A stretch of 64,000 bases of DNA. Source: Isoetes taiwanensis. Its lineage: Eukaryota > Streptophyta > Lycopodiopsida > Isoetales > Isoetaceae. The notes beneath the pieces are model-generated. The model was not told where the DNA came from, ran no database searches, and was given only the letters and a program-made list of their open reading frames with translations. The stretch is taken from NCBI GenBank assembly GCA_021234155.1, contig JAJEKV010000058.1, positions 1,605,060-1,669,059 of the forward strand. The letters run 5' to 3'. Shown piece by piece: positions 30,942 through 63,613 of this stretch. Positions within the stretch are counted from its first letter, which is position 1. Each line of letters starts with the position of its first letter. The translations under genes and the position numbers were made by a program.

Positions 30942-31730
30942 GTGATGAAGAGGATTCGTAGGGGTGAAACATCAGATAGGAGCGAAAGACAAAGTAAGCA
31001 GAGTAATAAGAGCACAAAATGCTCATATGAACTATGCAAATCATCACTGCCAACAATATCCAAAACACTTTTCAACAATGGACCGATAAGCTCAGCTTAG
31101 TATATCCACACCACGTTGTAACGTGAATCAGGTTCAAATTTCTGCAAAAACATCATAGCTTACCTCCTGAAGAGACTAAAATTTCTGGTCTCAGATATCC
31201 AAGGAAGATTAAACCGCATCAGCACTCAAGCCTTGCAAGGCGAGAACTCTCGGGCGGCCACTGCGAATGTTTGAGAAACAAGCCTTAAGATTATCATCAT
31301 AGACCGCAATACACGAAAATATAAGAGAAGAAGGGGATGGAAAAGACCATATCCGTCATTGGAGCTCTTCATCCTGATATATGCATTTAGGTTTAGGGTT
31401 TTAATTTAGGGTTAGATGAGGGGAATCTGGCTCCATTATCAGCCTCTACTAATAGACTTTTGACATCTTAGGTCATATTTAGTCTATCGAGATTTAACCG
31501 TTGTGGTTTCGCTTATTCAAAGTAGGGAAAAACTATAAAATACTCTTATGTTTTGACAAATTTTACCACATATCTCTGAGTTTTGATAATTTCCTGAGAT
31601 GCCCTTGGTCAAAATGCAAAGTATTGTGTATCTTTTAAAATTATTCAAATGCCCTTAAGATTTATGTTAATTTCCCAAATGCCCTTAAATTTTTGTTGTT
31701 TTCCTAAATGCCTTTGAGAACTAATATCTA

Positions 31731-37605: not shown

Positions 37606-40600
37606 TTACCTAGCCATAATATCCTGCTTCCATTTTGTTAGCCTTCCAGACATGGTACGATACACAGATCCACTATGAATGAGTCCTTTCTGCTGCATTA
37701 TTTCTAAAACCTGGGACGCCCCTTCAAAATTTCCTAGCTTGCATAGGCCATCAATAAGGATACCACATATTACAGTATTCTGTTTGCATCCTTTCTGAAC
37801 TGCTTTTTGGAACAGCCAAAGTGCTGGATCCTGCTTACCTATTGCAAGAAGGCCTTGAACAATGATTGCATAGTCATGCATATCTGGTTCATATCCATGT
37901 TCCACTATTTGCTGGAAGAGGGCATATGCTTTAAGGACACTTCCAGTGTTACAGAGTCTACCAAGGATTACATTTATAATTACAGAATCTGGATTGTACC
38001 CTTTATTACTCATTTCAATCAAAAAATTGCACGCTTCTTCCATCTTTTGTAATTTAAGAAGCCCCTGAAGGAAAGAATTATATGTAAACAAGTCTGGAAT
38101 GAAGCCTTCTATTACCATTTGCTTGAACAGAGTGCATGCTTCTTCTATGTGCCCAGTCTCACATAGGCCATCAAGAAGAGTAGTATATGTAACTTCGTTT
38201 GGATTGCATCCTATTACTGTCATCTGTTTTAATAGCTTTGAAGCTTCTAGGTGCCTTCCAGCTTTGCATAATCCATTAAGGAGTATACTGTAGCTGACAA
38301 CATTAGGTTTGCAACCTTTCTGGGGCATTAGTTCAATGATTTTCCATGCATCATCCCATGCCCATGCCTTACAAAGGCCATGAAGCAGTATATTATACGA
38401 ATTTACATCAGGGTCACATCCCCTGCATGGCATTGCCTCCAGGAGAGAACGAGATTGTTCTAAATCTCCCATTTTAATATACCCATCAAGAAGGGTATTA
38501 TAAGAGACGACGGTGGGAGTGCAGCCTCTACTGTGCATCTCATCAAGAAGCATAAGGGCCCTTTCCAAATACTTGGACTTGCAAAAGCCATCGAGGAGGA
38601 TGCTATACGATAACAGATTAGCTGGATAGCCCTTCTCAATGATTAGGTTGAAAATTTTGAGTGCTTCATTTACCTTATTTGTTTGACAAAGTCTCCTCAG
38701 AACATAATTCCACGCACTAAGATCTTGGTCACAAAGACTAGGATCCATTTCTTCAAGAAGCCTGTATGCATCTTCAACATGACCAGAATTACAAAGCATA
38801 TACACCATTTTCCTATATGTAATTGCATCAGGCTTAAATCCTTTTCCAATCATCTCAACAAACAGATCCCGAGCTTTATTGATTTGGTTTACTCTGCTAA
38901 ATGTGTCAATGGCAATATAATATGTGAAAAGGTTTGAAATGCCCAGCTGATCCATCATTTCTTCAAATGGCCTAAACATCTTAGTAAGCTTGACAGCTTT
39001 TCCAAGCTTTGACAGCAATGAATTATATACTTTCACATTTGGGAACGCTCCTTTGACAACCATAATAGAAAAGATATTACATGCACTTTTCACTTCGCCC
39101 AAGTCACAAAACTCACAAATAAGTATCTTGTAGACATCAGAAGTAACAACAGAACTAGTTGCCAAGATTTTATTAAAGAGCTGTAAAGCATTATCTACTT
39201 GTCCAGACTTACATAACTTTCCAAGCATTATACCGTACAGTGCAGGATCTGGAACCAATCCACAATGATGAATCCTATCAAGAATACTAAAAAGTTCGTG
39301 AAAGCTACCATTTGCAATCAAGCCATCAACCACAAGTCCAAAAGTTGCAACTTCGGGAATATATCCAAGCATAATCATTGCCTGAATAAGCTGGTGAGCT
39401 TCATTTAATTTTCCAACCTTGATACCAGCAGAAACCATGGGCGAGGGAACAAATCCCTCATGGAGGAGATTATGGAGCATATTATATGCTTCATCGACAT
39501 TTCCATATATGCTAAGTTGATCAAGGTCAGGAAATGCACCCTGGGGTGCCATGTTCTGGAAAACGTGATCGGCATCATCGGCAACACTATCTTTCCTGAC
39601 ACTATCATACAATGCTTTACCTCGAGCATTTTCGTATTTGCATGTTTCTAGAACAAGATTGCCATCAAGTTTACCGTCTAAGACAGTGGCAACTGTTCTA
39701 CCTTGAATGTTGGTTTTGTCTCCTAAGACAGCTTCCAGAACCCTGTATGCTTTGTTTAGCTTTCCAACTTTGCATAATTCATCAATCACTAAACCAGAAG
39801 TTACTGACTCGGGACTATATCCCTTATCAAGCATATGGGATAATGCATGATAAGCATTATCAACTTTGCCACATTTGCAAAGTGCGTTGACAAGTACATC
39901 ACATGCTCTTCTTTCTGGATATAATCCAAGAGTCTCTACTTTTTTGAAAAGGTCAAATGCTTCACTTACAGAACCAGATTTAGAAAGCCCAGTCAGGATA
40001 TTACTATAAGTGGCGGTATCTGGAAGAATATTTTTGTGAAGCATTGTAACCATTAGTTGGTAAGCCTCAATACACCTTCCTGGTTTGCAAAAGTAATTAA
40101 GCAACGGAATATAAGTGGCTGTGCTTGGGGAAGAGGTTGTATCATTTTTTGACGGAATTTCAAAAAGCATGTATGCCTCTTGCATCCTTCCAGTTTTCCT
40201 AAGCCCAACCAAAAGAGAGATGTGGGTAATTAAATCGGGAGCACTATCTTTCTGATGCATCTCTTCATACAATTTCCATGCATCGTCCACTTTACCAGCC
40301 CTGCTAAGACCATAGATTAGGGTATTATAAGTTGCAACCTTAGGTGTAACTCCTCTTTGTTTCATTTCTTCCCAAACACGGAGTGCTTGACTTACATGGT
40401 TCTTTCTGAATAAGCCGTTTAAAAAACAATTGTATGTAGATATATGTGGACGAGGACCACTTTCAATCATAGATTGTAGCAGTTGATTGGCCTGATCAGT
40501 TCTTCCAATTTTACAGAGACCATCTACAATGGAAGTGTATACAGAACATGTTGCTATTCTACTATCTTCCAATCCCATGATGAGTTTGTACGCCTCATCC

Positions 40601-41367
40601 ACATTCTGCACTTTGCAGAGGCTGTTGACAATGATAGATAAAGTGGCTCCATCAGGCTGGCAACCATCAATCAACATTTTCTGGTGGATTAATATGACTT
40701 GTTCATTGCAATTCTCATTGCTGAGCAATTTAAGGAGAGCATTATAAGTATCGGTAGTGTGCTTATAACTAGGATGTTGTCCAGACCAATGGAAAAATTC
40801 GAGTGCGATATTGATTTCTTTCAAATTTTTGAGAACCTGCACAATAAGTTGAGGACTCAGCCTAATATTCCATCCCACAAGGCAATCTGCCATACTTAAT
40901 CCATCCGCCTTGCATCTTAAGGCGTCCGCTATGCTATGTGCATCAGAGAGTATTCTATTCTGCCTCACAACCTGTGATCTTCTAGCTTTCCTAGTCATCT
41001 GCCGCTGAATTGGATATGTCTGCCCAACATCATCATCATCACAACTTTGCCTGTTTGACAATGGTTCATTCACTTTGGAGATCCATTCTATTTCATCCTC
41101 GGTCTTCCCAATTTCCCCATTATCCAAGCTTGCACTTTGCTTCATTGCCTCTAAGATAGCTTGCCTGTCTAAGGTAGCAGGCAAAACAACAGCTGGACTA
41201 TTGGAAACATCATCCACACTGTCAGCCTCTTCCGAATGTGAACTTTGTGAAGAAAATTGGTTGTTTGAATGTTTAGTTAGGGGAAGACATAACAAGAGAG
41301 GATGGTACCTGTGTGGCCTAATAAGGAACCAAGCCAAACCTCCGGCGGCCAGCTGTGTAGGCGCCAT
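37606..41367 (-). CDS. P-class pentatricopeptide-repeat protein, 1253 aa
   Basis: One uninterrupted, intronless frame. The first ATG after the in-frame stop near 41480 is at 41367 (MAPTQLAAGG); an upstream TTG at 41409 is not needed. Residues 1-50 are basic and hydroxylated, fitting an organelle targeting peptide. From about residue 200 to 1235 I count roughly 27 degenerate 35-residue PPR motifs of the P type (e.g. VATYNTLIYGLSRAGKVDDA, VVSYNTLLDGYIKMGDLEQS), interrupted by about 80 residues without a clear motif near 545-625. No E or DYW domain follows. P-class proteins bind single-stranded RNA, one motif per base, in mitochondria or chloroplasts, for stabilisation, splicing or cleavage. The target is unknown. 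It is the only clearly intact gene here. MULE debris lies downstream and a hairpin element upstream. Confidence 0.96.
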   Translation of the reverse strand: MAPTQLAAGGLAWFLIRPHRYHPLLLCLPLTKHSNNQFSSQSSHSEEADSVDDVSNSPAVVLPATLDRQAILEAMKQSASLDNGEIGKTEDEIEWISKVNEPLSNRQSCDDDDVGQTYPIQRQMTRKARRSQVVRQNRILSDAHSIADALRCKADGLSMADCLVGWNIRLSPQLIVQVLKNLKEINIALEFFHWSGQHPSYKHTTDTYNALLKLLSNENCNEQVILIHQKMLIDGCQPDGATLSIIVNSLCKVQNVDEAYKLIMGLEDSRIATCSVYTSIVDGLCKIGRTDQANQLLQSMIESGPRPHISTYNCFLNGLFRKNHVSQALRVWEEMKQRGVTPKVATYNTLIYGLSRAGKVDDAWKLYEEMHQKDSAPDLITHISLLVGLRKTGRMQEAYMLFEIPSKNDTTSSPSTATYIPLLNYFCKPGRCIEAYQLMVTMLHKNILPDTATYSNILTGLSKSGSVSEAFDLFKKVETLGLYPERRACDVLVNALCKCGKVDNAYHALSHMLDKGYSPESVTSGLVIDELCKVGKLNKAYRVLEAVLGDKTNIQGRTVATVLDGKLDGNLVLETCKYENARGKALYDSVRKDSVADDADHVFQNMAPQGAFPDLDQLSIYGNVDEAYNMLHNLLHEGFVPSPMVSAGIKVGKLNEAHQLIQAMIMLGYIPEVATFGLVVDGLIANGSFHELFSILDRIHHCGLVPDPALYGIMLGKLCKSGQVDNALQLFNKILATSSVVTSDVYKILICEFCDLGEVKSACNIFSIMVVKGAFPNVKVYNSLLSKLGKAVKLTKMFRPFEEMMDQLGISNLFTYYIAIDTFSRVNQINKARDLFVEMIGKGFKPDAITYRKMVYMLCNSGHVEDAYRLLEEMDPSLCDQDLSAWNYVLRRLCQTNKVNEALKIFNLIIEKGYPANLLSYSILLDGFCKSKYLERALMLLDEMHSRGCTPTVVSYNTLLDGYIKMGDLEQSRSLLEAMPCRGCDPDVNSYNILLHGLCKAWAWDDAWKIIELMPQKGCKPNVVSYSILLNGLCKAGRHLEASKLLKQMTVIGCNPNEVTYTTLLDGLCETGHIEEACTLFKQMVIEGFIPDLFTYNSFLQGLLKLQKMEEACNFLIEMSNKGYNPDSVIINVILGRLCNTGSVLKAYALFQQIVEHGYEPDMHDYAIIVQGLLAIGKQDPALWLFQKAVQKGCKQNTVICGILIDGLCKLGNFEGASQVLEIMQQKGLIHSGSVYRTMSGRLTKWKQDIMAR

Positions 41368-41569
41368 AGCCAAACAACCCACTTTACTTCGAGGGATGTC
41401 CTCCGGCAAAGATCTAGGCGAAACGCAGGGGTAACAACGTCCATTGTGAATCGAACTCTTCCGGTCCCTCGCAAATGTTCAAACACGAGGTAATTGATAC
41501 TACATGCCGCATGGTCCCATATGTACTACCCAGATCTATATCTCAAGTAGCATGCATGCCACTAGCTCC

Positions 41570-45666: not shown

Positions 45667-45905
45667 ATGGTCAGCTCAGTGTTTGCCAAGCTGTGCGCGG
45701 GCATTCTCGAACAGCAGGTAACCAAATGGGCAGAGGCAGCGGAAGTCAGGGCACTTACCCAGGCAGGCTTCCGACCCCGACATTCGACCATTGATCACAT
45801 CTTCACACTCAGGGCCCTAGTTGAGGACAGCAGAAACCGTCGGGAGGACCTGTCTCAGAACGTCGACATTGCCCTGGGGACCAAGTTTCGTGGCCAGAAG
45901 ACCAT
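45667..45905 (+). pseudogene. LINE reverse transcriptase fragment
   Basis: The plus strand reads FAKLCAGILEQQV, then TQAGFRPRHSTIDHIFTLRA, then LVEDSRNRREDL, the N-terminal fingers block of a LINE reverse transcriptase. It then jumps to NVDIALGTKFRGQKT, which matches other fragments at 47600 and 61460 rather than the expected palm. It is probably a chimaera or deletion product. Confidence 0.82.
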
Positions 45906-45960
45906 CCCTCCTCCAAGAAGCGCCAAAGTAGCTCATGTCCAGCACACTCGTAGTCAATTG

Positions 45961-47519: not shown

Positions 47520-48060
47520 TGGCCTAAAATGTGGATGCTGGATACTGCCGTGCAGGGCGTGAGTGTTTCTTTCTTTTGCAAAACCGACCTTGTAAATTGC
47601 TCCTAGGGTAATTTCGCCATTCCAGACGACTTGGCGAAGTCGATTTGCCATTCCGGAGCCTTCCCAGTGGCCGAACGACAAAACACTCCGGTTTCTACAC
47701 GGTCGCCCTCAGGATGCTCTGCGATATGACAAGTTCCCCCGAACCGATCTAGGAATCTTTTGGACCTTCCCGAAGAAGGACACCTGAACAGAGGATCCAA
47801 CGATCGGATAGGGGAACCGGGCTCCGAGAGGGTGGTCATTAGCATACCGCCTACCATGGGAGCGCTGCCAGGAAAGGCTGCCTCGGGAACATTTTTGGAT
47901 CCCGCCTCCTGGGGTTCGGACTCTCCCCTCTTGTGAGGCATCCATGCAGTCCTGGCCTCGTTTGAATTGGGGAAGGGTGCCCGCTCGGTTGCCCGGAAAA
48001 AGGGAGACACCCTCCCTCAAAAACATTTTAAGTAAACGGGTGCCCGGCATTGCCGGGCTT
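47520..48060 (-). other. Retroelement-like fragment, GC-richer
   Basis: The stretch 47600-47700 aligns in reverse complement with 61380-61475: on the minus strand ANRLRQVVWNGEITLGAIYK against TNRLLHSVQTADNTLDTKFC. Further minus-strand ORFs (47603-48050) have no recognised domain. The segment ends at a small inverted repeat, TGCCCGGCATTGCCGGGC. Confidence 0.45.
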
Positions 48061-48728
48061 CAATAATGTACTTGAAACAAATTATGTCTACAATTTCAAA
48101 GCATATATATTTCAAAAAACCATTTTCTATTTCATGTTTTGTGACCATTAAAGACACCAATTTGTGAACATAAATCTTCAATAAACATGTGCCTGGCGTT
48201 GGCGCGCATAAGTAGCATCGTGAATTTGTATGAATTCATGAGGTACTGATCTACTAAACGTTCTACCCTATAGGACTATGGATTATCGTTATGTGTGCCA
48301 AGCATTTTGGAGATAAAACACTTGCACTTCTTATTCTTTATTTTTCAAATTTTTTGTATTTGATGAAAGCCCTAAAAACATCAGAAAATATAGTTTAGTT
48401 GTTTATTTTAATTGGAACGATTTGAGTAATTCGACCTCAAATTGGGACCCATGTCTATAAGCATTAGTTGGTGTCTATAAAATTGGTCTAAACAAATTTA
48501 AGTGTTTCCATGAGAGATCCTTCTTATATCTCAAGATTTGGCAACACACATGCATGATTCTTGTATGCAGCATCTTGAATTAGGACTTGCTTGCATTTTC
48601 TTTCCTTTTTTTTAACTATTTGGAACCCATCATGTGTGTGTCATGGTCATTGTATTTGTGCCATAACCACAATATAGATAAAGAACATAAATTATAAAAC
48701 AAATAGAGCTAAGTTGCCAATAATAATA
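48061..48728. other. No gene seen
   Basis: AT-rich sequence up to the proposed CACTA left end, without recognisable features. Confidence 0.5.
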
Positions 48729-49079
48729 ACTAAAAAAAAAAGGGTGTCGTCGTTATGGACGAACACGTCGTAATAGTCGTCGTTCAACGACGTCTCGATG
48801 TTGTTCAACGACGCTCTGTAACTTTTAACAGAAACAGGGCCGCTTTTTTTGCCGCCTACTTTTTTGTTTCTAAGCGGCTAGGGGGGCATTTTTGGAGGCG
48901 ATTTTTGGCGCAGATCATCCTTAGGGTCCTTTCCAAGCTTCAATCAAGCATCAAAGGTATGTGAATGGATCAATCAACTCTATTTTTGAATCTAGGCTTG
49001 TTATTTGATAGATTTAGGGCTTCTTGTTTTTTCTTCCATTCCATCCCATTTCAATCCTCCTCTTCTTTCTAATCCTCAA

Positions 49080-49260
49080 TCTTTTAATTTTTTCCTTCTA
49101 ATCTTCCGTTCTTCTTCTTCCAATCGTCTATTCCTTTTCTTCTTCTTCTTCCTCATTTTCTTCTTCTATTCAATCTCCTTTCTTTCCTATCCCCCCCTTC
49201 TTCTTTTTCTTCAATTTCTTCTTCTTCTTCTTCTTCTATCTTTTTTTCCCATGGAAGAAG
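49080..49260. repeat. CTT-rich low-complexity tract
   Basis: Runs of TTCTTCTTCTTC and T-rich DNA. The 89-codon frame over it consists of Phe, Leu and Ser and is not a gene. Confidence 0.9.
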
Positions 49261-49656
49261 ATGGACGTCATTGAAAGATGAGGCCCCTTTTTTTCCCTCT
49301 ATTTTTTATAGCAAGAAGGGGACGTCATTGAAAGACGAGGCCCCTTCTTTTTTTGTTCTTCCCTTTTTTGTTTTTGTTTTTAAATGTCAATGTCAATAGT
49401 TTTTTTTAATGATCAATGTAAATGGTTTTAATGTCAATGGTCTTTTTAATGTGAATGGTCTTTTTTTTTTCCTTTTATTTTATTTATGCTAAAGTTTTCT
49501 AATCATTGAATGCCCTTTTTTTTTTTGCATATACACTCGTAACAAAATGCGTTGCTCTTGAAAATCGATTTTCGCACCTGACATTCTAGGTAAGAATTTG
49601 AGTTTAAATAGGAGAATAAAATTTTAATGTTTTATTTAGGTTAAAAAACTTGGAGA

Positions 49657-50060
49657 GACTTGGGCAAGGGCGTGGTCGCCTCCACCTTGAGTGGAGGGGA
49701 CTAGGTGTTCCGGGCCCAAGCTCATCGTTTACTCTTGTAATTTTATTGATTAATGTATTTAGTCTAGAAAAAATTGGGGAGACTTGGACAAGGGCATGGT
49801 CGGCTCTGCCTTGAGTGGAGGGGACTAGGTGTTCCGGGTCCAAGCTCACGGCCTACTCTTGTTTATTTGTTTATTAATATGTTAATAAATAGGAATCTTT
49901 ACGGGATTAGATAAGGGCATGGTCGGCTCCACCTTGAGTGGAGAGGACTTGGTGTGCCGGGTCCATTCTCTATTTAATTTATTACCTTCACCAACGGCTT
50001 TGACAAGGACATGGTTGGCTCCACCTTGAGTGGAGAAGACCGGATGTACCGGGTCCATAG
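49657..50060. repeat. Four copies of a conserved ~60 bp core with variable spacers
   Basis: Cores start near 49657, 49781, 49905 and 50000. Each has the order ACAAGGGCATGGTCGGCTCC, then ACCTTGAGTGGAG, then GACTAGGTGT.CCGGGTCCA. Each contains a small hairpin TCCAC-CTTGA-GTGGA; in copy 2 the left half is changed. The spacers (about 35-65 bp) are AT-rich and unrelated, so the core is better conserved than its surroundings. The function is unknown. Confidence 0.85.
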
Positions 50061-50393
50061 CACCTCCTTTTTTTATATCTTGTTTGTTTCTTCAAATTTT
50101 AAATAAAAAGGAAAAATAAAAGGCTGAGTCAGTTAGGGTTTTGAAAAAATCGCATTATTGATTTTCGGGTTCCTAGTTAAGAATGTCATTTTTTAAAAAT
50201 GTTAGGGATGTCAAAAAACACTAATGTGGGGTGGTTAAGAGCAAGAAAAAATTTCAATAATTGGGTTTTTAAAAAAAAATTATGAGGGAAATTAATTATT
50301 AAGAAAGTACCAAAGATTCTAGGTAAAGATTCATAATGAAGGTTTGAAAAAAGTCACAAAGCAAGATTGATGAATCTAAATTGGTTTATAGGT

Positions 50394-51886
50394 ATGGCCC
50401 CCAATGTGAAGACACAAATGCTTAGTGAGATTAGACGCGTGCTCATAAATGAGATATGTGCTAACGAAAGTCCCGACCGAGAGATGCAAACTGGTCAACG
50501 TGTCGACCATTTTGTCAGACATGTCAAAAGGAGGTGCCAATTTGAGTTAGCACAAAAATGGCCAGGCCAGGAAGAAATGTTGACTTCTCTCCTTGACACA
50601 CATGTAAAGTCAATGATTGGAAACCCCATGGACGAACTGAAGACATGTTTGAAGCATTCAGTGCAGCTTAAAAGTCTCAATGCCGAGGCTCGTGTGAAGG
50701 AATGGGTAGCTTCATGGAATTCCACAAAGAAGCGATCACAAGAATACCATTGCGGATCTCAATGCATGTCAGTTGGAGGTAATAAAAAATGCTTTGCATC
50801 AGGGGGGAAGCTCTAGTGGAGCAGGGCCTAGCAAGCCCCACTTTTCTTTGGAGAATCACATGAACACATCAATCTTTGTTGATCCCATACCCATAGAGGC
50901 CGTGGATGTGATACGCCTTATTGAAGAGAAACCAACTCATCGCACGTATCAAATCAAGATCAACGGAACACAACACTTCCAAGATGATGAGCTATACAGT
51001 GGATGGATTTTCAAGGGCGGCAGAGACGTATGAGATGGCTCAAAGATACATACGCTTCAAGAGCCCGCATCCTGCTTTGGCTACATCCATTGGACTTGCA
51101 TATGAAGTTGCTAGCTCTAGTTGGGATACCATAGGGCCAATGGTGATTCTACCATTCATGAATGGAGAGACACTTGCACACTTGTTTGACTATTTACCTA
51201 ATAATCTGTCACGTTTTAGAAGATGGTCAAATGCAATTGCTAGAGCGCCAAGAAAAACTGACAAACACATAGGCGCTGAAGTTAGAAGAAAAATGCGAGT
51301 TGTATAACAATATGTTCCAGAGATAGCTCTTGCCCTAGCAGAAGGTGTCGTTGAGATCCACAAAGGCCACTTCACTCACACAAAGCTTAATTGCAAGAGA
51401 ATCAAATTACATTTTGACGATGAGTACCAAAATGTATGGGTGGCTATTGGTGATTGGGACAATGCAATTCATTTTTACGCTAAAGAGCGTCGTCCCTTGT
51501 TGAACTGTCGGTACTTACTCTCGGATGGACAAGCAAAATATCCATGGTTAGAGGAAAGTGCGTTTGAGAAATCAAAGGATGATGATCGTGTATGGGGACA
51601 CAAAATTCATGATGTCTTTGCATTGGGATATATTTATGAGATGCTTCTTGATTTTGTGCAAGCTATGCGACGAATGGAGTGGTTTAATAATAACAACAAT
51701 GCCCAATGGATTAATCCAACCCATATGTACCAACGACGTCTTGACAAGTTGGAGGAGCAAAAAATGAGAATGATGTGCCTACGTGAAGACTTATTCTCGA
51801 AACGACCCAAAGCTTCTAAAGTTGTTGAAGCCTTACAAAGTGTTGGAATATCTTCCACCATGGTTATGAGACAAGACGACACATGA
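50394..51886 (+). pseudogene. Kinase-fold (pseudokinase-like) gene inside the CACTA element
   Basis: Three frames join into about 495 codons. The first is MAPNVKTQMLSEIRRVLINE onward, with helical sequence to about 50730. After a frameshift come KNTIADLNACQLEVIKNALH, SSSGAGPSKPHF and IKINGTQHFQDDELYSGWIF. After a second shift near 51020 come YIRFKSPHPALATSIGLAYE and PMVILPFMNGETLAHLF, then a TAA at 51305, then IALALAEGVVEIHKGHFTHT, KLNCKRI, VAIGDWDNA, IHDVFALGYIYEML and KRPKASKVVEAL. From PMVILPF onward this follows a protein-kinase C-lobe. The HRD.K..N loop reads HTKLN (51377) with no Asp, and DFG reads GDW (51449). Even the ancestor may have been catalytically dead. I know no CACTA protein of this type. 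Confidence 0.6.
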
Positions 51887-52172
51887 AGTGCATGGATGCC
51901 TTGGAGATGCCAAAACTGTTGTTGTCACAACTCAAAGAATGAATAAAACATTGTATATCTTGCCATGTTTAAGAATGGTAATTTTTTTAATTGTCTAATG
52001 ACATATGTAAAGACACTTTTAATTATACAAATTCCAATGTTTTGAAACTTTTATTTTGTCATAAGTTTGTGTAATGAACTTCCCATGTTGCTAACATTTC
52101 TTGCTTTCCAAATATGTCATTCATCACACTCCATGTAAATAACTTACAAGTTTTTGCACATACCCAGCAATC

Positions 52173-53510
52173 ATGGACTATAGCGCGATGGCCTATGTTG
52201 GGTTTCCAACTCTATTTCTTTACTGGATTGGCAGCCTTATGGACGGCCCTAAACCTGCGAAGGCCATTAAGAGGCGAGGTTGGTTGTTCGGGTATAGCTA
52301 GCCACCACCGCCACCTCCACCATTGTGCGGATTTGGTATGGATTATTTTCTAGGATAAGATGTAAGTTAGCCATTTATTTTTAACGTTCTAATAAATGTT
52401 TTTAAATGTAGCGTGTAAATGCGGCATAGTCCTTTTTGTCATATGCGTGGTGTTCGTCCTTGTGGTTGTGGGCGGGTCTTCTTCTAGAAGAAGAAGAAAT
52501 CGTCCAGTCGACGAGCAAGATAAAGAGCAGGGAACTCCGAGATATCATCAAGGCGCCCACCCTGAAGATAGGTGGAATGAATTGCAAAGCACGATGACGC
52601 CCGAAGAATGGGATGTTGCGGAAAGGGCTGTTCAACTAAGTAGGATGAGATCGGACTACGAACCTGCTCGTCATAGCGCATACACTCCTTCGGAATATCT
52701 TAGGCCCGTTCCCGAGGAGGAGGAGATAGTACCTCGACGAAAGGGCACCGACCGTCGTTCACGTTCCCGTGGATGTCTTTCCTCTTCAAGCTCTATGAAA
52801 GATCGTGCACCACCTGCGCGTCAACATGTCTTTGAGTATAAGTGAGTTCATCTTGAATTATGCCATTTTTTGTTCACTAACACATATTCATATGTTAGTC
52901 GTATGTTGAGTGTAATCCTTTCACGAAGATGGCGTGCAAGACCACTGAAGATGGCAAGCTTTTTTGGACTTATGTTAATAATGTCACAAATAACATTTGC
53001 CAAAACGTCCACAAAGGTGATTGGAACTCGGAATGCTTTGATGCGGAAAAAGAGTTGATCAAAACGACGATAGAAGAACAATATCCTGAGCTCAAGTCAT
53101 GAGACATATCATGGAGGAAGGTTGTAAAACATTGTGGTCAGAATGTTAAAGCCACCAAGTATTAGGCTCCTTCGTTCTTCATGATGACCATCATCGTACT
53201 CATATTTGATTTATATTTTGCAGAAGTAATCAGAAGAAGCAACTGATAGAATTGGCAGAAGCTGCGGGAGTCTCGACAGACGCAGTAGCAAAACCTCTAG
53301 GGTGGACTGATGATGCATTTGAAGTACATCATCTCTCCTACGACTCGTATAATTAGATGACGCCACGTGGACTAAGACTGTTACAAAGCCAACATATTAT
53401 CAAAGAAAGGGGTAGATAGAACTGCGTCAGCTTTGAGGGCGAGGTATGACGAAGCAAGTGGCAGCTATAGTGCCAATAAGACTGGGTCTCACAAGGCCCC
53501 CAAAAAAAAA
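52173..53510 (+). pseudogene. Second CACTA gene, 5' exons (unrecognised family)
   Basis: Exon 1 (52173-52335) starts MDYSAMAYVGFPTLFLYWIG, has one in-frame TAG at 52299, and ends at donor TTTG|GTATGG. The next exon (to about 52840) is charged: RRRRNRPVDEQDKEQ, MTPEEWDVAERAVQLSRMRS and a basic Ser-Arg-rich end. It stops at donor TATAA|GTGAGT. Exon 3 (about 52905-53158) has GKLFWTYVNNVTNNICQNVH, IEEQYPELKS, a TGA, then WRKVVKHCGQNVKATK. Exon 4 holds LIELAEAAGVSTDAVAK and PLGWTDD. Exon 5 (to about 53510) has ALRARYDEASGSYSANKTGS then HKAPKKK. The layout (helical core, basic tail) might fit a DNA-binding TNP1-like protein, but that is speculation. Two stops suggest decay. Confidence 0.45.
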
Positions 53511-55225
53511 TTGTTATCATTTTTATGGGTTACTTTTTGTATTAAACCATCTAAATAAACTAATGTTACTAAGTGGGTTAATGTGTTGAATAACCGTAGC
53601 TAGTTAAATAGTGTGGTTTGCATTTAAGGTTTTCCAGCGTGGTATATCCATATCGTAAATATCTAAAGTTTTTCACTGTGGTTTATTGCAGTAGTTTTTA
53701 CTGTGGTTTGTTGCGGTAGTTTTTCACTGTGGTTCTTCCTTAGTTTGTTGCTATGTGACATGTGGACCAATTAATAATATATGTTATAAATCATTAGTGG
53801 CTTTAGCCTTAAAGCATTGTGCAACTCATAGTGGTATCTTAATCACCTCATGAATGTTTTGTCACATGAACCATTATTGTTGCATAGAATAAAGGCTTCA
53901 AGTTTCTCATTATAAGATTTAAAATTTACCCATCAAACTAGTGGTGGCTTAGTATCTTCGTAGTACTTTGTGCTGGAAACAAACTAAATCATATTTTGGA
54001 TTAAACCATCGATATTAGTTTTGTAAAGAAGTTAAGACATTTCATTTGTAAACCAATAGTAGCCTTAGCTTTAAGGAATTTGCAATTTGTGGTGGTTGTC
54101 CAATGAAACCATTGTTCTTCTACGGGATAAACGGTTCAAGTTTATTACCAAAATAGTGAACAAGCTTTCCATCAAAACAGATGTGGCTTTGTGTCTTTAA
54201 ACATATCTTGTGTTAGGAGGAAACCAATGGCTTATACTATACGATTTAGTGGTAAGTACTTTGTGTTTGAGACAACGCAATTATATTTTAGATCACAAAT
54301 TGATCTTAGTTTAGTAAAGAAACTAAGACATCTCATTTCTAAACCAATAATAGCTTTATAGCTTTAAAGGAATTTGGAGTGCACGGTGGTTACCCATTAA
54401 AACCATTGCGGTTCTATGGAATAGCTCGTTCTATGGACCATGTGATTTTTTATAATGGTTTTTGGTCTTTCCTCACATAAAGGCACGTAGTTCTATGTTG
54501 ATAGACAATGCAAAACAAAAACAACATGAAATAACTCTAGATAAAAAGTTTTTCCACCTTTATTGTTTTTATGCAAATTAAATTTTTTTTTTCTTTTTAA
54601 AGAGCCTTTTGGGAATCGAACCCAAATAAATTCAGGCATGATATTATGACAAACTTAAAATGCACAAAAACCTAACAATGTGAAAGGATATTTTTTCAGA
54701 ATCAAGTTATAGATAAAAGCTACTCATCCTCTCTTGCACTTGCAAACGTCTTGAAAAACAAGCAGAAAAAGCGATTGTCTTTACATGCAAAAGAGGAAAG
54801 GAAAAGACCAAAGCAAATTTAAGGCAAAAAGAGAAGATAATTTGTACATCTGTTAAAATCCTTGACAAGAAATTTGTACATAGTTGCAGAGTAAGCAGGG
54901 TAAGCGCCAGAGTTTTCAGCATGGATTACATAGCATGCTAGGGCTTTGAGCGTCAGGCAGCATGACAAAGAACGTGGTGCTCGATTAAGCAAGTAACAAA
55001 GGTTGCCGTTTCAGCTAGTAATCACCATCTCCAATGGTTCTGACAGATTGCCAAGCATAATTCTGATGCATTTTCATTGTGGTAACCACATTGTATTGTT
55101 GCTTGGCTATGGCATCATATATACTAAAATCCCACTGGCACCAAAGTTGCAAAGCAAAGACGTGTAACTTAGACCAAGAGTACTGAAGGTTCCTGAGAGA
55201 TTGAAGGCGACAAGCTACACAACCG

Positions 55226-55269
55226 AGGGAAGATAAGATAAGATAAGATAAGATAAGATAAGATAAGAT
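55226..55269. repeat. (GATAA)n microsatellite and adjoining retroposon tail
   Basis: About eight perfect GATAA units. It is followed by GATGAATTTTTACGTCCACG, which resembles ATTTTTTATCGTCCACTGAG at 63794 in the SINE near the right end. The microsatellite may therefore have grown from a SINE tail. Confidence 0.8.
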
Positions 55270-56327
55270 GAATTTTTACGTCCACGGGAACCCAACGGGT
55301 TATGGGACGGCACATGCAAGGGCAACAACCCATCTAAAACCTGGGGACTAGGCCCCATCACCAAACACAATAACCAAATATTAAAAGACTACCAAGAAGA
55401 AGATAATGCTAATGCTAGTGGTAATTTTATGCTAGTGGGAAGGCAAATCAGTCAATCAACACACAATAGATGGCTCTAATTGACCTTTATCCTATTACAC
55501 TTATATCAATATTGATATCAGAGACTGCATTTCACACATATCCAGCCTAAAACATGCAAACTGGTTTCAAGTGAGATATTTATGCGCATAGTACATTGGT
55601 GGATCTATATTCCATTGGAGAATGGAACAAACAAGATGGTAAGCAAGACCCGCTAGCAGCCACCAGGGAGCTCTGTTTGCACTCAAGAGGATTATACAAT
55701 GGCAATAAAGTGTGTCTTAGTCTTGCTTCCAGTACCCATTCAGAACCAAGTGGCTTATGCTAGTTCTTGAAGCTTATCTGGAACCTCTACAAGTTTGCTA
55801 GCTTTTAAAGATGCTGAAACAAGGAAATGAAATCGGCACAAGGCAATTCGTAGACAGATAAACACTATCAAAGCTAAATAAAGATCATGCCAGCTTTGCC
55901 ACAGTAAGACAGCAAATAAAGCATGTGACAAAAAGGGGGTGTCTTGACTGTGTCAGCCATAGAAGCGTTCCGACTAAGCAAATGATGGTTGGCTTTTACA
56001 TCCTCTATGCTTTGCAAGGAAGAGGAATATGCTGCAGAGGAGTGGGTTTACAATGGCAGAGAACTGTGACGGGAAAAAATTGATCAGTGATAATGATAAG
56101 GGCAAAGATTTTAGCAGAAAATGCAATGGATAGAATGCACAATAAAATACAATATAATAAATTGAATAGAATGCACAATAAAAGGCAATGAACAGAATAG
56201 AATGCTAATGGCTATTTGGTTAGTACTGTTAGCATGCAGGGATTTAAGCGCCAGATCAGGGACTCGATTTTTAACAATTGGAATGGCAGCGGTAGAGCAT
56301 ATCATTGCTTACTACTGAGGTTTTTGC

Positions 56328-56948
56328 TTACACTAGCATTTCCGGATAGGAAAACTTACAGGGTGCATGGCAGATGTATAGCAGATGCTGAAGAAAAATA
56401 ACAGAGTAACCTAGAGGCCAAAGCAAAGCACTCCTCTGAATCTGTCGATCCTTCTTGGCTACAGCCTGAAAAATACTCCAGCTCCTCCTTAATAAGAAAA
56501 AATGCGTTGAGTCAAACAAAAATCCAACAAGGCTAGAATTACATCGAAAAATACTGACATGCTGAGTGTCAGGTTTTGGAACATGAAATTCCTGCCTGTC
56601 CTGTTTGTCTCTCTCATATGCCATTGGTTACCCTTCATGGTTAAAACATTTATGCATTGAAGCAACCATCAACATTCTCAAAAGCAAATCGCTATTATAG
56701 AACTCCTGATGCTTATGAGAACCTTTCTGATTGCTAAAGCAAGTAAAACAGAGGCCAAATAGAGCCTTTGAATCCTTAACACGACATTCCTCACGCCAGA
56801 ATGTAGCACCCAAGATATCCGTAGTGGCCTCTACTTTGCTCATTTGCTCATGTTCTACAAGGCGCACAACCGGCGGCAAGGCGGCAACTCGACACACAAA
56901 AGCAAAAGCAAAATCCAAAATGAAAATCATAATGGCCGAAAAACACAA
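56328..56948 (-). other. Unassigned minus-strand ORFs
   Basis: 56628-56948 reads MCFSAIMIFILDFAFAFVCR then EHEQMSKVEATTDILGATFW, with a hydrophobic start followed by mixed sequence. A second frame (56328-56624) continues downstream. I recognise no domain and see no clear splice pattern. It could be a captured exon or chance. Confidence 0.15.
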
Positions 56949-58149
56949 TGGCGGGGATCACCCATAATTTCGACCGTTAATCTTAGAGCCAATAAAATCA
57001 TAGGACCAAGATCACGATCTCGATCGTTCATCTCACCCTGTGGATGCTATATTGTTTTTATCAGAGGTGTGTTTTCACGCTATATTTTTTATTTGATTCT
57101 CTCACATTCTATTCTTTTGATCAATATTTTATTTTGATATGCTTTTGACAAAATAATAGAATTACCTATGTGATTATGGTTTCTCAGTTGTTATTAGGGA
57201 TTCACGCCTTGTTGTTGCAACATTATTTTCATCCATCTAAAGGCAATTTTTATCTTAAATTTTGGCTAAAGCCCATTGGTCATTAGCAAAAAGGGACCCA
57301 ACCATCTAATTTGGTGGCTTCTCAACCTTCATACCGAAAGGTTAACGGCTTCTTCGATATCAATATCTATCACCCCTTCATGTTTTGCAATACCCATCAC
57401 TGAACTTTGGCACCTCACCATGCCTATGCCATGTTACCTCCCATAATTTAAAGCAAGTAATTTGGGCTAGTTGTGATACATGTGGTGACTGCATGGATAT
57501 CGCATCGTGAGTCGTGGGGATGAGTATAGATGATGACATAACGGTGATGATAGGGATAATGCATGAGAATCAAGACAAGAATATGGGGATGGTGGAGGTA
57601 AGAATTCCCCCATGTGGTCCTTCAAGTTTTGGTTTCATTGGTCTTTCATTGCATGGTATCACACCCTCAATGGTTAAAGGGCTAAGTCGAGGGATATGTC
57701 TCGAGGCTTCTTGATCAAAAGTTGATTCGATAAAGGTAAGGGAGTTTTCGAACTTATGACTCTTGTAATTATGTATTCCATAGTGGTATGAATCCCTTCA
57801 TGTGATGATTCTTATGGTGGTTATTATACTTGTGTTCCGAGGGGTATGCCACAAGGGCACATGGTCTATAGTGTTTAGGGCCTTTGTATTGAGTGCATGG
57901 TGGAGGTATGAGTTTTCCATGTATCGATGTGGACTAATGTAGGGTGGAGCAAGTTGACTTTATATAGAGGACCTCTATATATTGGTGGTTGAGTGCATGA
58001 TGGAGGTATATATTGACCTCCACTCTTGGATATACTTCCTCCTAATATATGGACACCATGCTACATGCCACAACCAAGACAGGTGGGCACCATGGTCATA
58101 TAGAAACGATACTAGCTAGCAGGCCTGCCTAGAACCCCCCTTACAACAA

Positions 58150-58745
58150 TTTCTTGAATTATTTAGCCTGTCCACGTGTCTGCCAGGTCAGCTGAATTTT
58201 GACGTGGTCTAATTGCAATTATAAGATTTCTTATTTTTTGATCATGCGGCCAGCGAAAATTTTCTACTAGGCTAGGTAGCTACTTAGGTTGATGGCTAGT
58301 GCTCAAGAGCATTGCTCTGATACCATTGTGAAGCTCCTTGCACTATATACGGTAGCCAAATTTTGATGTGGTCTAATTGCAATCTAGGATTTCTTATTTT
58401 TTTATCCTGCGGCCAGCGAAAATTTTCTACTGGGCTTCGTAGGATTTCTTATTTTTTGATCCTGCAGCCAGCGAAAATTTTCTACTAGGCTAGATAGCTA
58501 CTTAGGATGATTGCTAGTACTCAAAATCATTGCTCTGATACCATTGTGATGCTCCTTGCACTATATACAGTAGCTGAATTTTGACATGGTCTAATTACAA
58601 TCGTAGGATTTCTTATTTTTTGATCCTGTGGCCAGCTAAAAATTTTCTACTAAGCTAGGTAGCTACTTATGGTGATGGCTAGTGCTCAAGATCATTGCTT
58701 TGATACCATTGTGATGCTCCTTGCACTATATATAGTAGCCCCCCA
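58150..58745 (-). mobile_element. TRIM-like tandem array with three tRNA-iMet primer sites
   Basis: Three to four direct units share TTTTGA.GTGGTCTAATTGCA, GGCCAGCGAAAATTTTCTAC and TGTGATGCTCCTTGCACTAT. Each junction has GCTCTGATACCA (58314, 58532; GCTTTGATACCA at 58697), the plus-strand form of the initiator-Met-tRNA primer site. That site lies next to TGTGA, a possible LTR start. Short LTRs, a primer site and almost no interior are the definition of TRIM elements. Tandem arrays of them arise by LTR recombination. Confidence 0.65.
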
Positions 58746-58879
58746 TATACACAAGTAGCATCCAACTGGATATATAAACACACACCACACTACATTGCTC
58801 AATTGGCCTGTCCCAACCACTTTACATTGCATCTGTTGCATTTGATGCCCAACCATTCAGAGAAAGATTCTGGGCAGTC

Positions 58880-58950
58880 TCAAATTCGAGATCTGTAATT
58901 GCTAGAACTAGTGTGTTACCACTAGATCAAACACCCAGACTATAATGCAA
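58880..58950 (-). repeat. tRNA-derived SINE head
   Basis: The minus strand has GTTTGATCTAGTGGTAACAC (A box), then ATCTCGAATTTGAG (weak B box) about 30 bases later. Decayed. Confidence 0.45.
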
Positions 58951-59448
58951 TCTTCCTGCTTTCAGGTCTTGGATAAGGGCAAAAGAGGGTTCCAAGTAAT
59001 CCGGATATCTTAATATCACAAGAAGATGCTTTTTGAATTTGCCATCAAGGAGGGCATATTTTTATATATATCATTTGATATACTACCATCAAAAACTACA
59101 TATCACATGTGGGATTTGTAAAAAACGGGTCAGACTTATATTTCTCAATAAAAATGCATAAATTCTCCTAGTTTTTCTATTAAATACATTTTGTTCACAA
59201 TTGACACCAATAAATCAAGCGTTATATGACACATGCCATGCTATTGCATAAGTGTCAATAATTGACATTTTCTTCTACCTCCTGCAAAAGTGTCAATATA
59301 TTAGGATATTGACTACTCTTTTAAAGAATGTTAATCTCTTAAACAATCTTAATAAGAAAGGTCAATTCAAGAGGAGAAATTGACTACTATTATTTACAAA
59401 CTTAGTCGCCTCCAAATGATAAAAAGATACAGATTAAAAATATACACC

Positions 59449-60445
59449 CTAACACTAGAGTTGTCTCGGGGACTGTTTGGGTTCATCAACCCGTATGGGT
59501 CCCTCAATCCCTTCTCCATATTAGGGACTAGTTCTTCATGATACTTATGAGATTTTAAATATGAACACCTGAATTGTAAGATTAACTCGAAGTTGTACCA
59601 CCATATTTAATGGCAAAGTAAAATTCTTCACAAATTTGGTACAGTCGCATCTTGAAATACACTCAATTCAATGGTTTCGATGATATGATATAATCTCATG
59701 ACACTCAACATGGAATACAAATTTCAAGATAACATTAATTTTCTATGAACGTAGCCTAAAAATGCTACTCATCTTTTAAATTTCATGTGATTTTATAAAA
59801 ATTTGATGTATCAATGAGCAAATCATAATTTAAATCCTTGAGAGACCCAGTCAGGTCCCTAAGGAATTTCTGAAAAACAGACATCCAAGAACCATTTCAT
59901 ATCCATGATATTTGAAATAGAATAAGAATGTGCAGGTACTATTATTTTTCAATGGAAATAGATACTAAGTACTACACATCTTGCTAAATGGATTTCATTT
60001 TTTCAAAAGATGGAGTAGTACTATGCATTTTCAAAATTTTGACCCTCAGGGAACCTAACTGGGTCCATAAAGAACTTCTGAACTTCAAACTTTAAGGAAT
60101 TATTTCTCAAAAATTCTACCATAGATTTTTCTGATAGAATTCTCATATCATGATTTACAAGATGGAAGAATTAGAATTATTAGGAAAAATCATATTTGCA
60201 AAAATGTGAGAAATGTTAAAGACTTTGAGAATAAACTTTCCCTTTGCATTCGGCTCCACATTATGTTTGGTAATAGAAGCTTCCTATATTTTTCATACAT
60301 TTTTCCTTACATGTACACTCATGGAGGACAACATATTGTGAGTATGTAGACAAATTCTTTATCTCGGAGCTATAATAGAATTTCAAAAAAAGTGTACGAA
60401 TGAACCCATTTGGGTTCATCAAGGGACAATTCTAGTGCTAACATT
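59449..60445. mobile_element. Candidate TIR element, ~1 kb
   Basis: The left end, CTAACACTAGAGTTGTC, and GGGTTCATCAACCC mirror the right end, GGGTTCATCAAGGGACAATT then CTAGTGCTAAC. Flanking TAA could be a target duplication. The inside contains two direct copies of a GACCC.GTCAGGTCCCTAA..A-type block (59846, 60056) and no transposase. The superfamily is undecided (PIF/Harbinger-like or CACTA-like). Confidence 0.45.
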
Positions 60446-60789
60446 CATCTGCAAATTCAGAATATATTTAAGAATAAAATTTAGAATGAGATAGTTTGTA
60501 GTAAAATATATTTAATCTGCATAGTTGTAAATAGTTTGTAGTAAATATACTTAATCTTCCTAGTTGTAACTCCTATTGTGGTCATGAAAGGCACCAAACA
60601 CTAGCTGTAGATTAAGGCTATTATGCAGGTTAAAAATCATATAAAGAAAATATACATGTGACAGCACACCCCAAAACAACATCCTCCCCTTCTAATTTAA
60701 AACTAATAGGACCATCCGATCCCCTGCCCAAGCCTGCCCTACTATTAGTTATTATTTTTCCATTTAACATGGTGCCTAACTATCTTGGT

Positions 60790-60860
60790 TGTGGCGTGTA
60801 GCCAAGGGGCATTCCCCTAGACTAGATGGTTTAGGATTCAAATTCGGGGCATGTATTGTA
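60790..60860 (+). repeat. tRNA-derived SINE head
   Basis: TAGCCAAGGGG fits the polymerase III A box. TAGGATTCAAATTCGGGG, 33 bases later, fits a B box. It is followed by repetitive sequence rather than a tRNA 3' end. Confidence 0.45.
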
Positions 60861-60889
60861 CACTTTTTCGTGGTACGAGTCCCCCTATG

Positions 60890-61230
60890 TATGTGATGGT
60901 CCCCCATTGTACGAGCTCTCCCATGCCTACCTACTCCTAGTTTTGCCTACTCACTGCCAGGTCACCCTACCAGCCAATCTACGAGCCCTCCCATATGCCT
61001 ACCTACTCCTAGTTTTGCCTACTCACTGCCAAGCCACCCTGCCCTGCCAATCCCATAGTGCCAAGTGACCCTTATATGTGGTGAGGTGGAAGCATTAGCC
61101 CACTTTCATCCAAACTGAATCTATAAGGGGAAGCATGAGCCCACTCTCACCCATGAAACTGAATCTCTAACTGGACGCATGAGCCCACTCTCACCCATGA
61201 AACTGAATCTCTAAATGCCTGTCCATGAAA
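60890..61230. repeat. Two short tandem arrays
   Basis: First a ~70 bp unit twice (TACCTACTCCTAGTTTTGCC then TACTCACTGCCA at 60928 and 60999). Then a ~48 bp unit three times plus a fragment (GCATGAGCCCACTCTCACCC then ATGAAACTGAATCTCTAA). Confidence 0.85.
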
Positions 61231-61319
61231 CTAAATCCCTAAGCGCAGGCTGCCTTTCCAAATCCCCTTCACCCGAAAGGGGCTTAAGAGTCAATATATA
61301 TGAAAAGCAATGTACCTAC

Positions 61320-61775
61320 AATGTTCTGGGAAGATCTGACGGTTGGAAGTGCTCCACGTGCCTTGCAGACAAAAGGGCGAGAGCACTGGACGACCATTCT
61401 GGACACTTCGGCATGACAAACCGACTACTCCATAGTGTTCAGACTGCCGATAATACCCTAGATACCAAGTTTTGTGGTCTCATGATTCATCGGCACCTCC
61501 ATGTGTTCAACTGCCAGTTGAACATGTGACTTGATGCATTATTTGTGACTATTCTATTCTATTCTATTCTATTCTAGATTTTGGACTGGATTGCATCCCC
61601 ATTAGTCTCCCTTCTCCATTTTCCACAAAAATTGGTCCCTAGGGTAATACGATAGTTTGAACACCGTGACAAAGTCGGTTCATCATCCCGGAGTGTCAGA
61701 TATCGTCCGGTGTTGCCCCTTCCCCCCAATGGTGTGTTTGTAGCATTTCCAACCATCAGATGTTGCCTACGACCT
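61320..61775. mobile_element. Imperfect foldback with ~150 bp arms
   Basis: 61320-61475 and 61622-61775 are inverted, diverged copies: GATCTGACGGTTGGAAGTGC against GATGGTTGGAAATGCTAC, and AATACCCTAGATACCAAGTT against its counterpart. A related single arm is at 47600-47700. A (TATTC)n run (61551-61575) sits in the loop. Arms encode a recurring TNRLL...TLDTKFCG peptide. Confidence 0.6.
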
Positions 61776-62443
61776 ACCATTGTGCAAACTATAAACCATT
61801 ACACTTTGTTATTGCAAAAATTAGCAATTTGTGATTCTAAGCAATGCATAGCTATCTTGTGAAAAGTAATGGATTTTCCTCAGTAATGCCATTAAAAACC
61901 ATTACACCTTTTTATTGTAAAATTATGCAATTTTTTATTCTAAACAATGCATAGCTATCTTGTAAAAATTGATGCTTAATATAGCTAATGGACCATATTG
62001 TCATCCATGGTTCTTGAAGACAATGAATTAATCTTCAAATCATTCCATTATTTATTTAGAGATCTTGAAAAAACATTACTAGTGTTAATAAACCACTACT
62101 AATTTTAGTTTGTATTGAAATAGTCCCAAACTGCAACTAGTTTTTAGTAAACCACTATCTTATTAGTAACTGACATAAATAACCATGTTGTAAACCACTA
62201 TTCATTTTGACAAACCACTATAGCATGTGGTTTTCTGCTATCAAATAAATTATTGTATAAAAGACCATGTCTATCATGGTTTTTAGATTATCCGATACTA
62301 CTTTAACATGGCAGTTCATTTTTGGGTGCCTTGTGTCTGGCGGTTATGAGAGTACTAATAACCCATTTGTAAATATAAATTTGGTTTATAATTTAGGTTC
62401 TCACATTGAATACTAACATTAGTTTTGGTGCTCATTCAAGAGA
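61776..62443. other. No gene seen
   Basis: AT-rich DNA with recurrent AAACCACTA words, ending at a pyrimidine tract and a plausible splice acceptor (CTCATTCAAG) at 62443. Confidence 0.4.
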
Positions 62444-62638
62444 AATGTCGGTAAAGATGAACGCGAAAGGGCCTTCAAAAAAGGCAATCGTGCGGCCATC
62501 CAATACGCCACGGCGCGTGAACGGGGCGAAGTATGTATCATTCACTACATAATTATTTGCGACTACAACGACCTAATTGTTGCAATATACTTACAGGTAG
62601 ATGAAAGACTAAGACGAGGTCGATCGCTCGAGAAGTGA
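62444..62638 (+). CDS. Second CACTA gene, last two exons
   Basis: Exon 62444-62530 reads RNVGKDERERAFKKGNRAAI then QYATARERGE, ending at donor GAA|GTATGT. After a 66-base intron with acceptor ACTTACAG, exon 62597-62638 reads VDERLRRGRSLEK and stop. Both keep frame across the junction, are very basic, and lie on the same strand as 52173-53510. The upstream basic KTGSHKAPKKK end could continue into them. A poly-T/AT-rich 3' region and the CACTA end follow. Confidence 0.5.
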   Translation, partial: NVGKDERERAFKKGNRAAIQYATARERGEVCIIHYIIICDYNDLIVAIYLQVDERLRRGRSLEK

Positions 62639-63000
62639 GCACAGCAACAATTAAAGACTTTTTGTTGTAATATTTTTAAGTCTTTTAGTTTGTGGTGAAT
62701 TGACTCAATATATTTTGTAATGTGCAAATTATATTGTGAAATATATTAATTGAATTCAATGTAAATTTTTTATGCTTTGTTTTTATTATTTAGGATTTTT
62801 ATAATTAATTGATCTTCCTATGTTTATTTATTTTAAAATTTTTATGCTCAATTCTATTTTTTGATTCTTTGATTTATTTTATTAATATTTATATAATATT
62901 TAATATTTATTTAATATTTAATATGTAAATATTAAATAATAATGCTTATTTACTATTATACTGAATACTAATATTTAATTAGTATTTTTCTTTTATTTTT
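62639..63000. other. AT-rich 3' region
   Basis: Almost pure A/T from 62750 to 63000 (TATTTATATAATATTTAATA-like words). It is probably the 3' untranslated and flanking sequence of the second gene; no further feature is seen. Confidence 0.5.
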
Positions 63001-63613
63001 CTAATTTTGTTTTTCATAATTCGGGTAACGTCGTTTAACGGCGTTGCCACGTGTTAACGCCACGCTACTGGCATGGAACCTGCGTGGCATGGATGAAACT
63101 GAGGCCGGTAATCATGCGTCAATGCATCGCTTGAGCGTTTAGCAGCCTTGACCCGCGATGTCGAAGCCGCGTATGGCAGGCAGCGTATTTGTTGGAGCCA
63201 CATGTAAGTAGGCGTCGTTTAACTCGCGTTGCCCGGCGATGTGCTTACGCCATTGGTGGATGGAGCACGCCTGCGGGCAGCGACCCACGATAACCATCAA
63301 AAGCGTCGTTTTCGCGAACACTTGACGTCTTGCCCGCATGCATTGTGCGTCTTTGGCGGCCAGCGTCGCGTTGGGCCTTGCGGCGCATCGCGGCATGCGA
63401 TGTCGCCGCGCGTCGTTGAGCGGCAATTTGTAGATCGGATTTAACGATGTCGCCCGATTGCGACATGCATACACGCACGACAACGGGGACGAGCAACGGC
63501 GTGCGGGCGTCGTTATAGGCGTCGTTTATCGACTATTTGTCGACGTTTATCGACGACTAAACGACATCTGGACGTCGTTATAGACGTCGATATGAGGCAA
63601 TATTTTTGTAGTG
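63001..63613. repeat. CACTA right subterminal region and terminus
   Basis: Abruptly CG-rich, with many CGTCGTT, CGACG and GCGTTGCC words in both orientations. It ends ATATTTTTGTAGTG at 63613, the inverted CACTACAAAAATAT terminus. Dense short subterminal repeats are binding sites for CACTA proteins in known elements. ORFs here are by-products of CG richness. Confidence 0.75.

Follow-up and report, generated by a model that had tools for sequence, protein, structure and literature searches.

A stretch of 64,000 nucleotides from Isoetes taiwanensis (contig JAJEKV010000058.1, positions 1,605,060 to 1,669,059 of the forward strand), called here the window, probably holds in its right part the 3' portion of one decayed copy of a giant, many-copy family of CACTA-type DNA transposons. 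From left to right, a full element would contain a left tip, a TNP2 gene with a SET domain, a tandem array, a CG-rich block, a kinase-like gene (gene 1), a second gene in the position of TNP1 (gene 2), a CG-rich subterminal region and the right tip (Table 1). A reading made from the sequence alone had described this place as a CACTA-type element with a kinase-fold gene, an unrecognised second gene and no visible TNP2, and had offered two explanations, a non-autonomous lineage with captured host sequence or a CACTA-like lineage with an unfamiliar protein set. The second explanation fits, the set being SET-TNP2, the kinase-like gene 1 and the novel gene 2. As for the missing transposase, the observation is true of the window copy, but SET-TNP2 is located upstream and on the same strand near some other copies, and the family as a whole is probably not one without TNP2. 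It looked so because the window copy is interrupted by a nested element and has lost its 5' part.

The genome sequence searched comprises 1,658,258,908 bases in 1,110 contigs; the published assembly (PMC8566536) is described as 1658.30 Mb long, with 204 scaffolds and 909 unplaced contigs. Gene 1 gave 1,951 first-look candidates, of which 135 were scored, all of them matching and some stop-free over the match. One exon of gene 2 gave 634 candidates (150 scored), TNP2 2,311 (150 scored), the left-block query 48664-48970 gave 345 (40 scored) and the right-end query, consisting of the last 594 bases, gave 408 first-look candidates (40 scored, with a match of mostly about 100-170 nt). Positions were compared among 135 gene-1, 150 gene-2, 150 TNP2, 72 SET, 40 left-block and 59 right-end places, each list being the best-scored part of more candidates and the SET list including host genes, and among 21 array places picked by hand from 83 matches.

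How gene 1, gene 2 and the right tip follow one another, and on which strand, is seen directly. A listed gene 1 lies within 6 kb of 62 of the 150 gene-2 places, in every case 5' of gene 2 and on its strand, and the right end is downstream of gene 2 on the same strand in each of the 14 listed pairs within 15 kb. The two same-strand genes between the blocks, as first described, are present and recur genome-wide, and gene 2 occurs together with the right end in those 14 pairs, an outcome that does not refute the sequence-only reading by its own criterion. Right ends within 40 kb of gene 1 are same-strand downstream in ten pairs, same-strand upstream in one and on the opposite strand in one. Pairs of gene 1 and a left block no more than 20 kb apart number 23; the block is same-strand upstream in 20 of them and same-strand downstream in the other three. 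TNP2 within 60 kb of gene 1 is same-strand upstream in ten pairs, same-strand downstream in one and opposite in three, SET at the same distance is same-strand upstream in 7/7, and from the gene-2 list TNP2 is same-strand upstream in 9 of 12 pairs and opposite in three. Counted per gene-1 copy, 15 of the 135 have TNP2 or SET within 60 kb upstream on the same strand and one has it downstream on the same strand; on the opposite strand there is one upstream and two downstream. Uniformly distributed places would give 0.54 per class, an expectation that ignores the clustering of transposons, although clustering alone yields neither a side nor a strand bias.

SET is found directly beside TNP2. Within 10 kb of TNP2, SET is on the same strand and 1.4-1.7 kb upstream in six of six cases, and in both TNP2 loci scanned SET (PF00856) exceeds the Pfam cut-off of 22.4 bits. 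Locus L124 shows, in this order and on one strand, a Transpos_assoc-like segment (26.3 bits, cut-off 27.7), SET (27.4 bits) and Transposase_21 (173 bits), and locus L123 shows SET with 29.2 bits and Transposase_21 with 201 bits. From this arrangement SET would sit between the Transpos_assoc segment and the catalytic core of TNP2, and the SET and TNP2 parts seem to belong to one gene.

The tandem array is met both after TNP2 and before gene 1. In C1056, an array with a unit of about 1.08 kb is located directly after TNP2, where Tandem Repeats Finder gives only a 289-base repeat, and the array is same-strand downstream of TNP2 in 2/2 pairs (C1035 and C1078). With respect to gene 1, five pairs within 60 kb have the array same-strand upstream (among them C1056 twice, C1019 and C1099) and one has it same-strand downstream; L017 contains an array-related piece 5' of gene 1 with about 66% identity. 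The most complete order is that of C941, which carries on one strand SET, TNP2, an array piece, the CG block, gene 1, gene 2 and the right tip, from 14429521 to about 14465993 (about 36.5 kb). In C941, SET and TNP2 are placed by search matches within 14429501-14458851, a segment of about 29 kb that was left unread.

C1056 shows TNP2 directly 3' of gene 2 as well. The C1056 and C1019 copies are 96% identical across 5.7 kb, and C1019 ends in ...GGCTCAACATTTTTGTAGTG, while C1056 at the same place runs into exon 1 of the next TNP2 gene, an exon present in a longer form in C941. The junction between the right end and TNP2 exon 1 falls at a shared CAACA (near 1254 in L085, at about 11806191 in C1056) and is read as two neighbouring elements fused by deletion. 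The order with TNP2 directly 3' of gene 2 was set aside as a native order because the near-identical C1019 copy has its normal right tip at this very point and because the C1056 junction falls within TNP2 exon 1.

The canonical right end that had been claimed for the window is confirmed. The minus-strand CACTACAAAAATATTGCC at 63613 is the sole CACTACAAAA in the window, and the tip recurs genome-wide, reading CACTACAAAAATGTTGCC inwards in many copies. Among the 20 right-end loci read, the window's own included, 18 have GTAGTG at the end of the match (the exceptions are L052 and L063), and their flanks differ except in the pairs L048/L065 and L049/L060. The exact 18-base word of the terminal inverted repeat (TIR) gives 30 hits in the genome and none in a reversed control. 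Sixteen of these hits were newly read: 13 clearly resemble known right ends (similarity of at least 0.77), and L107, L111 and L114 resemble them more weakly (0.58, 0.69 and 0.75, respectively), so a left tip could still be among these three. The newly read loci share flanks in the pairs L118/L119 and L121/L122. Of the other 14 hits, 11 coincide with earlier right-end places and three were placed by position only.

CGTCGTT or AACGACG occurs 15 times in the 64 kb, four times within 48729-48960 and seven times within 63020-63613, and the count of either block is matched by none of 2000 first-order simulations. CG-rich words had been described as lying at both ends of the element; they are present in both blocks, but the left block is read here as internal and not as a terminus. 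A left limit at 48729 is not confirmed: CACTAC is found in none of the 20 left-block loci fetched, and some copies are homologous already from 48664 or from positions to the left of it. For a left tip at 48729 or 48664 there is no CACTAC and no target site duplication (TSD), homology extends further left in part of the copies, and both candidates were rejected. By eye, at least four distinct shared modules lie 5' of the block among these 20 loci. No left tip is seen in them, and none in the sequence read in front of three TNP2 genes; in C941, none is recognised in the 4.2 kb 5' of TNP2. As a separate observation, the left-block copies L087, L088, L098 and L102 contain a common module 5' of the CG block, which in L098 and L102 has the sequence MSGGGGKPDFQHPVQEQLPELDYCINDSPPLG; it is a possible gene capture and resembles exon 1 of a plant nucleobase-ascorbate transporter.

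The size first given to the element, 48729 to 63613, includes 8,846 bp that belong to a nested CACTA-like element and is not retained. The insertion is seen directly: homology of the window to other copies breaks at 53489 and returns near 62332, the unbroken insertion site is present in L017, L018 and L020, and the nested termini match in 16 of 17 bases. Without this insert, the segment from 48664 to 63613 measures about 6.1 kb. AACCACTA words at both ends of the nested element were considered and dropped, as there are four at one end and none at the other.

Gene 1 is conserved. An open relative, L026, encodes 520 amino acids from the first Met. In an alignment of 21 copies (A1) the core is highly conserved, and the members of a second clade share 47-56% identity with L026 in the rows aligned. 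The median ratio of nonsynonymous to synonymous substitution rates (dN/dS) between clades is 0.15 (77 pairs), 0.18 (14 pairs) and 0.27 (22 pairs), with dS near 2 and saturated in the first two sets, and within clades it is 0.56 (54 pairs) and 0.62 (21 pairs); these values refer to the conserved core of 20 of the 21 rows and to pairs with at least 120 shared codons, the pairs not being independent and the rows having been chosen for open frames. Because gene 1 is conserved between clades, the first of the two explanations offered earlier, a non-autonomous CACTA element with captured host gene pieces including the kinase-like gene, fits poorly and is very improbable. In favour of capture are the module resembling a transporter exon, carried by four left-block loci, and the known uptake of gene pieces by CACTA elements (PMC8978399); against it stands the repeated joint occurrence of gene 1 and gene 2 (62 of 62 listed pairs).

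Profile comparison gives moderate support to a degenerate kinase fold for the predicted gene 1 product. The gene 1 family aligned with four kinases by hhalign scores 44.3 (E 3.2e-5), and 200 column shuffles reach at most 25.0; clade B alone scores 38.5 (best of 200 column shuffles, 25.9), the other clade scores 36.0 (no shuffle run), and leaving out each kinase in turn gives 32.7-43.2. The similarity spans the C-lobe and pairs H-T-K-L-N with HRDLKxxN, GDW with DFG and DVYALGYIYEML with DVWSLGxxxxEM. By eye, the catalytic HRD Asp and DFG are absent from the 21-row alignment, which shows HTK for HRD and GDW followed by D or E for DFG; variants at the HRD position are HKK in L017 and IHTK in L040. 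Since HTKLN, GDW and DVYALGYIYEML replace the kinase motifs, the product, if it has a kinase fold, is probably inactive.

An unrelated helical protein without a kinase fold is a rather unlikely alternative for gene 1. No Pfam kinase model matches any of the 21 rows of A1 (five families appear at chance level, the best with E 0.036), NCBIfam kinase models match neither of two gene 1 members, a gene 1 profile search of PDB returns no kinase and has as its top match a tetratricopeptide repeat (TPR) protein with E 0.023, and phmmer of gene 1 against PDB gives nothing meaningful. In the same direction, the hhalign probability is 73% (local) or 84% (global), with 9 of the 21 rows kept by the filter, and a single-sequence structure prediction of gene 1, with a mean predicted local distance difference test score (pLDDT) of 35, was not used. 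Against the helical protein stand the pairing of H-T-K-L-N, GDW and DVYALGYIYEML with kinase motifs and scores that, for the family taken together as well as for clade B by itself, exceed 200/200 column shuffles. The kinase fold of the sequence-only reading has moderate support from profile-profile comparison and no match in the Pfam, NCBIfam and PDB sequence searches. In viral contigs there are three pattern matches and no relative.

Gene 2 is a small spliced gene. No credible Pfam match is found in the gene 2 exons scanned, and Transposase_24 (PF03004) is unmatched in these exons; PF03004 was not searched in the genome.

Several results weigh against the assignment of all these parts to one giant element. 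Only the 15 listed gene-1 copies mentioned above, out of 135, have a listed TNP2 or SET upstream on their strand within 60 kb, at distances of 8.7 to 60 kb, the lists being limited to the best-scored copies; of the 59 listed right ends, not one lies within 60 kb of a listed TNP2, SET or array place. No listed left-block place pairs with an array place; from the left block, TNP2 is same-strand upstream in two cases and same-strand downstream in one, and SET is same-strand upstream in three, same-strand downstream in one and opposite in two. TNP2 is also found downstream of a gene 1 in C1056 and C952, an arrangement read here as neighbouring elements. No TNP2 can be recognised in the window, where seven TNP2/SET pieces used as tblastn queries gave only four weak matches (E 0.054 to 0.74). 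Neither the left CACTA tip nor a TSD of the outer element was found, and the left boundary near 48664 shows no matching 3-bp flanks in the window, L014 or L017. For want of that tip and that TSD, the single mobile unit is something we infer, and it is likely.

Part of this evidence would also suit a separate shorter element, made of gene 1, gene 2 and the CG-rich flanks (about 6.1 kb without the insert) and mobilised in trans by adjoining SET-TNP2 elements. Such an element is rather improbable. It would account for the common boundary near ACCACAATATAG in several left-block copies, for the words shared by the CG block and the right end, and for the majority of gene-1 copies and the 59/59 listed right ends that have no listed TNP2 or SET nearby. 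However, the boundary near ACCACAATATAG has neither a left tip nor a TSD, array DNA of the kind found after TNP2 likewise occurs in front of gene 1 and on its strand, and the strand and side bias of TNP2/SET is strong.

In the single giant element, TNP2 would cut at the element tips, and CGTCGTT-type words would be read by the gene 2 protein, by the SET-TNP2 protein or by both. The kinase-like protein, in which the usual catalytic loop is missing, would serve non-catalytically, as a subunit for binding or regulation, and the SET part may have the element's chromatin as its target. We infer each of these protein functions. If the unit holds, it would be a plant DNA transposon with a domain of histone-methyltransferase type beside its transposase and with a kinase-like protein kept by selection, and the action of a transposon on host chromatin through its own genes would become testable in lycophytes. 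It is a tentative proposal, possible without being the more probable outcome, that this giant quillwort CACTA lineage is one mobile unit encoding a SET-transposase fusion and a conserved pseudokinase as a toolkit for acting on host chromatin or signalling; if true, such a self-carried toolkit, directed for example against silencing, would be a new kind of DNA-transposon protein set. For annotation, an error is corrected in that a familiar superfamily had looked as if it were without TNP2.

Table 1. Features of the transposon copy in the window (positions of the 64,000-nucleotide stretch).
Feature	Position	Strand	Remark
Second array-related piece	45854..45960	+	
Piece homologous to the tandem array (unit of about 1.08 kb) which, near other copies, separates TNP2 from gene 1	47531..47981	+	
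A-rich segment ACCACAATATAG...AACTAAAAAAAAAA, in some copies located before the CG block	48664..48728	+	without CACTA tip
CG-rich block 5' of gene 1, CGTCGTT words in common with the right end	48729..48960	+	read as internal
Repeated leader units of about 124 bp, 5' of gene 1	49633..50062	+	
Gene 1, kinase-like	50394..51886	+	window copy with changes of frame and a single in-frame stop
Gene 2, 5' exons, small novel protein	52396..53489	+	start uncertain; in-frame stop in exon 52899-53162 of the window copy
Nested CACTA-like element of 8,846 bp, TIR CACAAGGC[C/A]CCCAAAAA	53490..62335	.	TSD TCT (53487-53489 and 62336-62338)
Gene 2, last exons, beyond the nested element	62430..62640	+	
CG-rich stretch internal to the right end	63020..63419	+	conservation lower
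CG-rich right subterminal region, tip ...ATATTTTTGTAGTG	63420..63613	+	last ~100-170 nt alike in most scored copies

Outside the element, the window contains three other features. Upstream of it, on the minus strand, is a gene encoding a pentatricopeptide repeat (PPR) protein in one long frame of 1,290 residues (37606-41478). A pair of small nucleolar RNAs (SNORD14 and a snoZ15-type) is duplicated in repeated stretches on the minus strand (25780-26120 and 30964-31305), and a MuDR-like transposase fragment below the Pfam cut-off is located at 28969-29424 on the plus strand.

The family resembles CACTA elements (En/Spm, EnSpm) in its CACTACAAAAA-type right tip, its subterminal repeat words (at the right end and in the block 5' of gene 1), its probable TNP2 (Transposase_21) with a Transpos_assoc-like segment and its second gene, which would lie downstream of the transposase. 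Maize En/Spm, a CACTA element, encodes TnpA and TnpD, and a Transposase_24-type second protein is absent from some CACTA elements. Unlike these, the family shows SET beside the TNP2 core, an extra kinase-like gene and a long internal tandem array, and its second gene has no Pfam match. The Jozin CACTA elements of Chenopodium, as described in the available part of PMC8978399, gained Peptidase_C48 and Transposase_24 and captured gene pieces and satellite arrays; they are similar as CACTA elements with extra domains and differ in that the word 'kinase' has no occurrence in that part of the source. In the literature searched by title and start of abstract, with subscription papers mostly outside the search, neither a kinase-like gene nor a SET-TNP2 fusion was found described for any CACTA element, and no study of lycophyte CACTA elements was found. 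SETMAR, one domesticated host gene of primates, combines SET with a mariner transposase. SET together with a DNA transposase is common to SETMAR and the Isoetes elements, whereas the apparent SET-TNP2 arrangement of the latter is multicopy and belongs to a transposon family.

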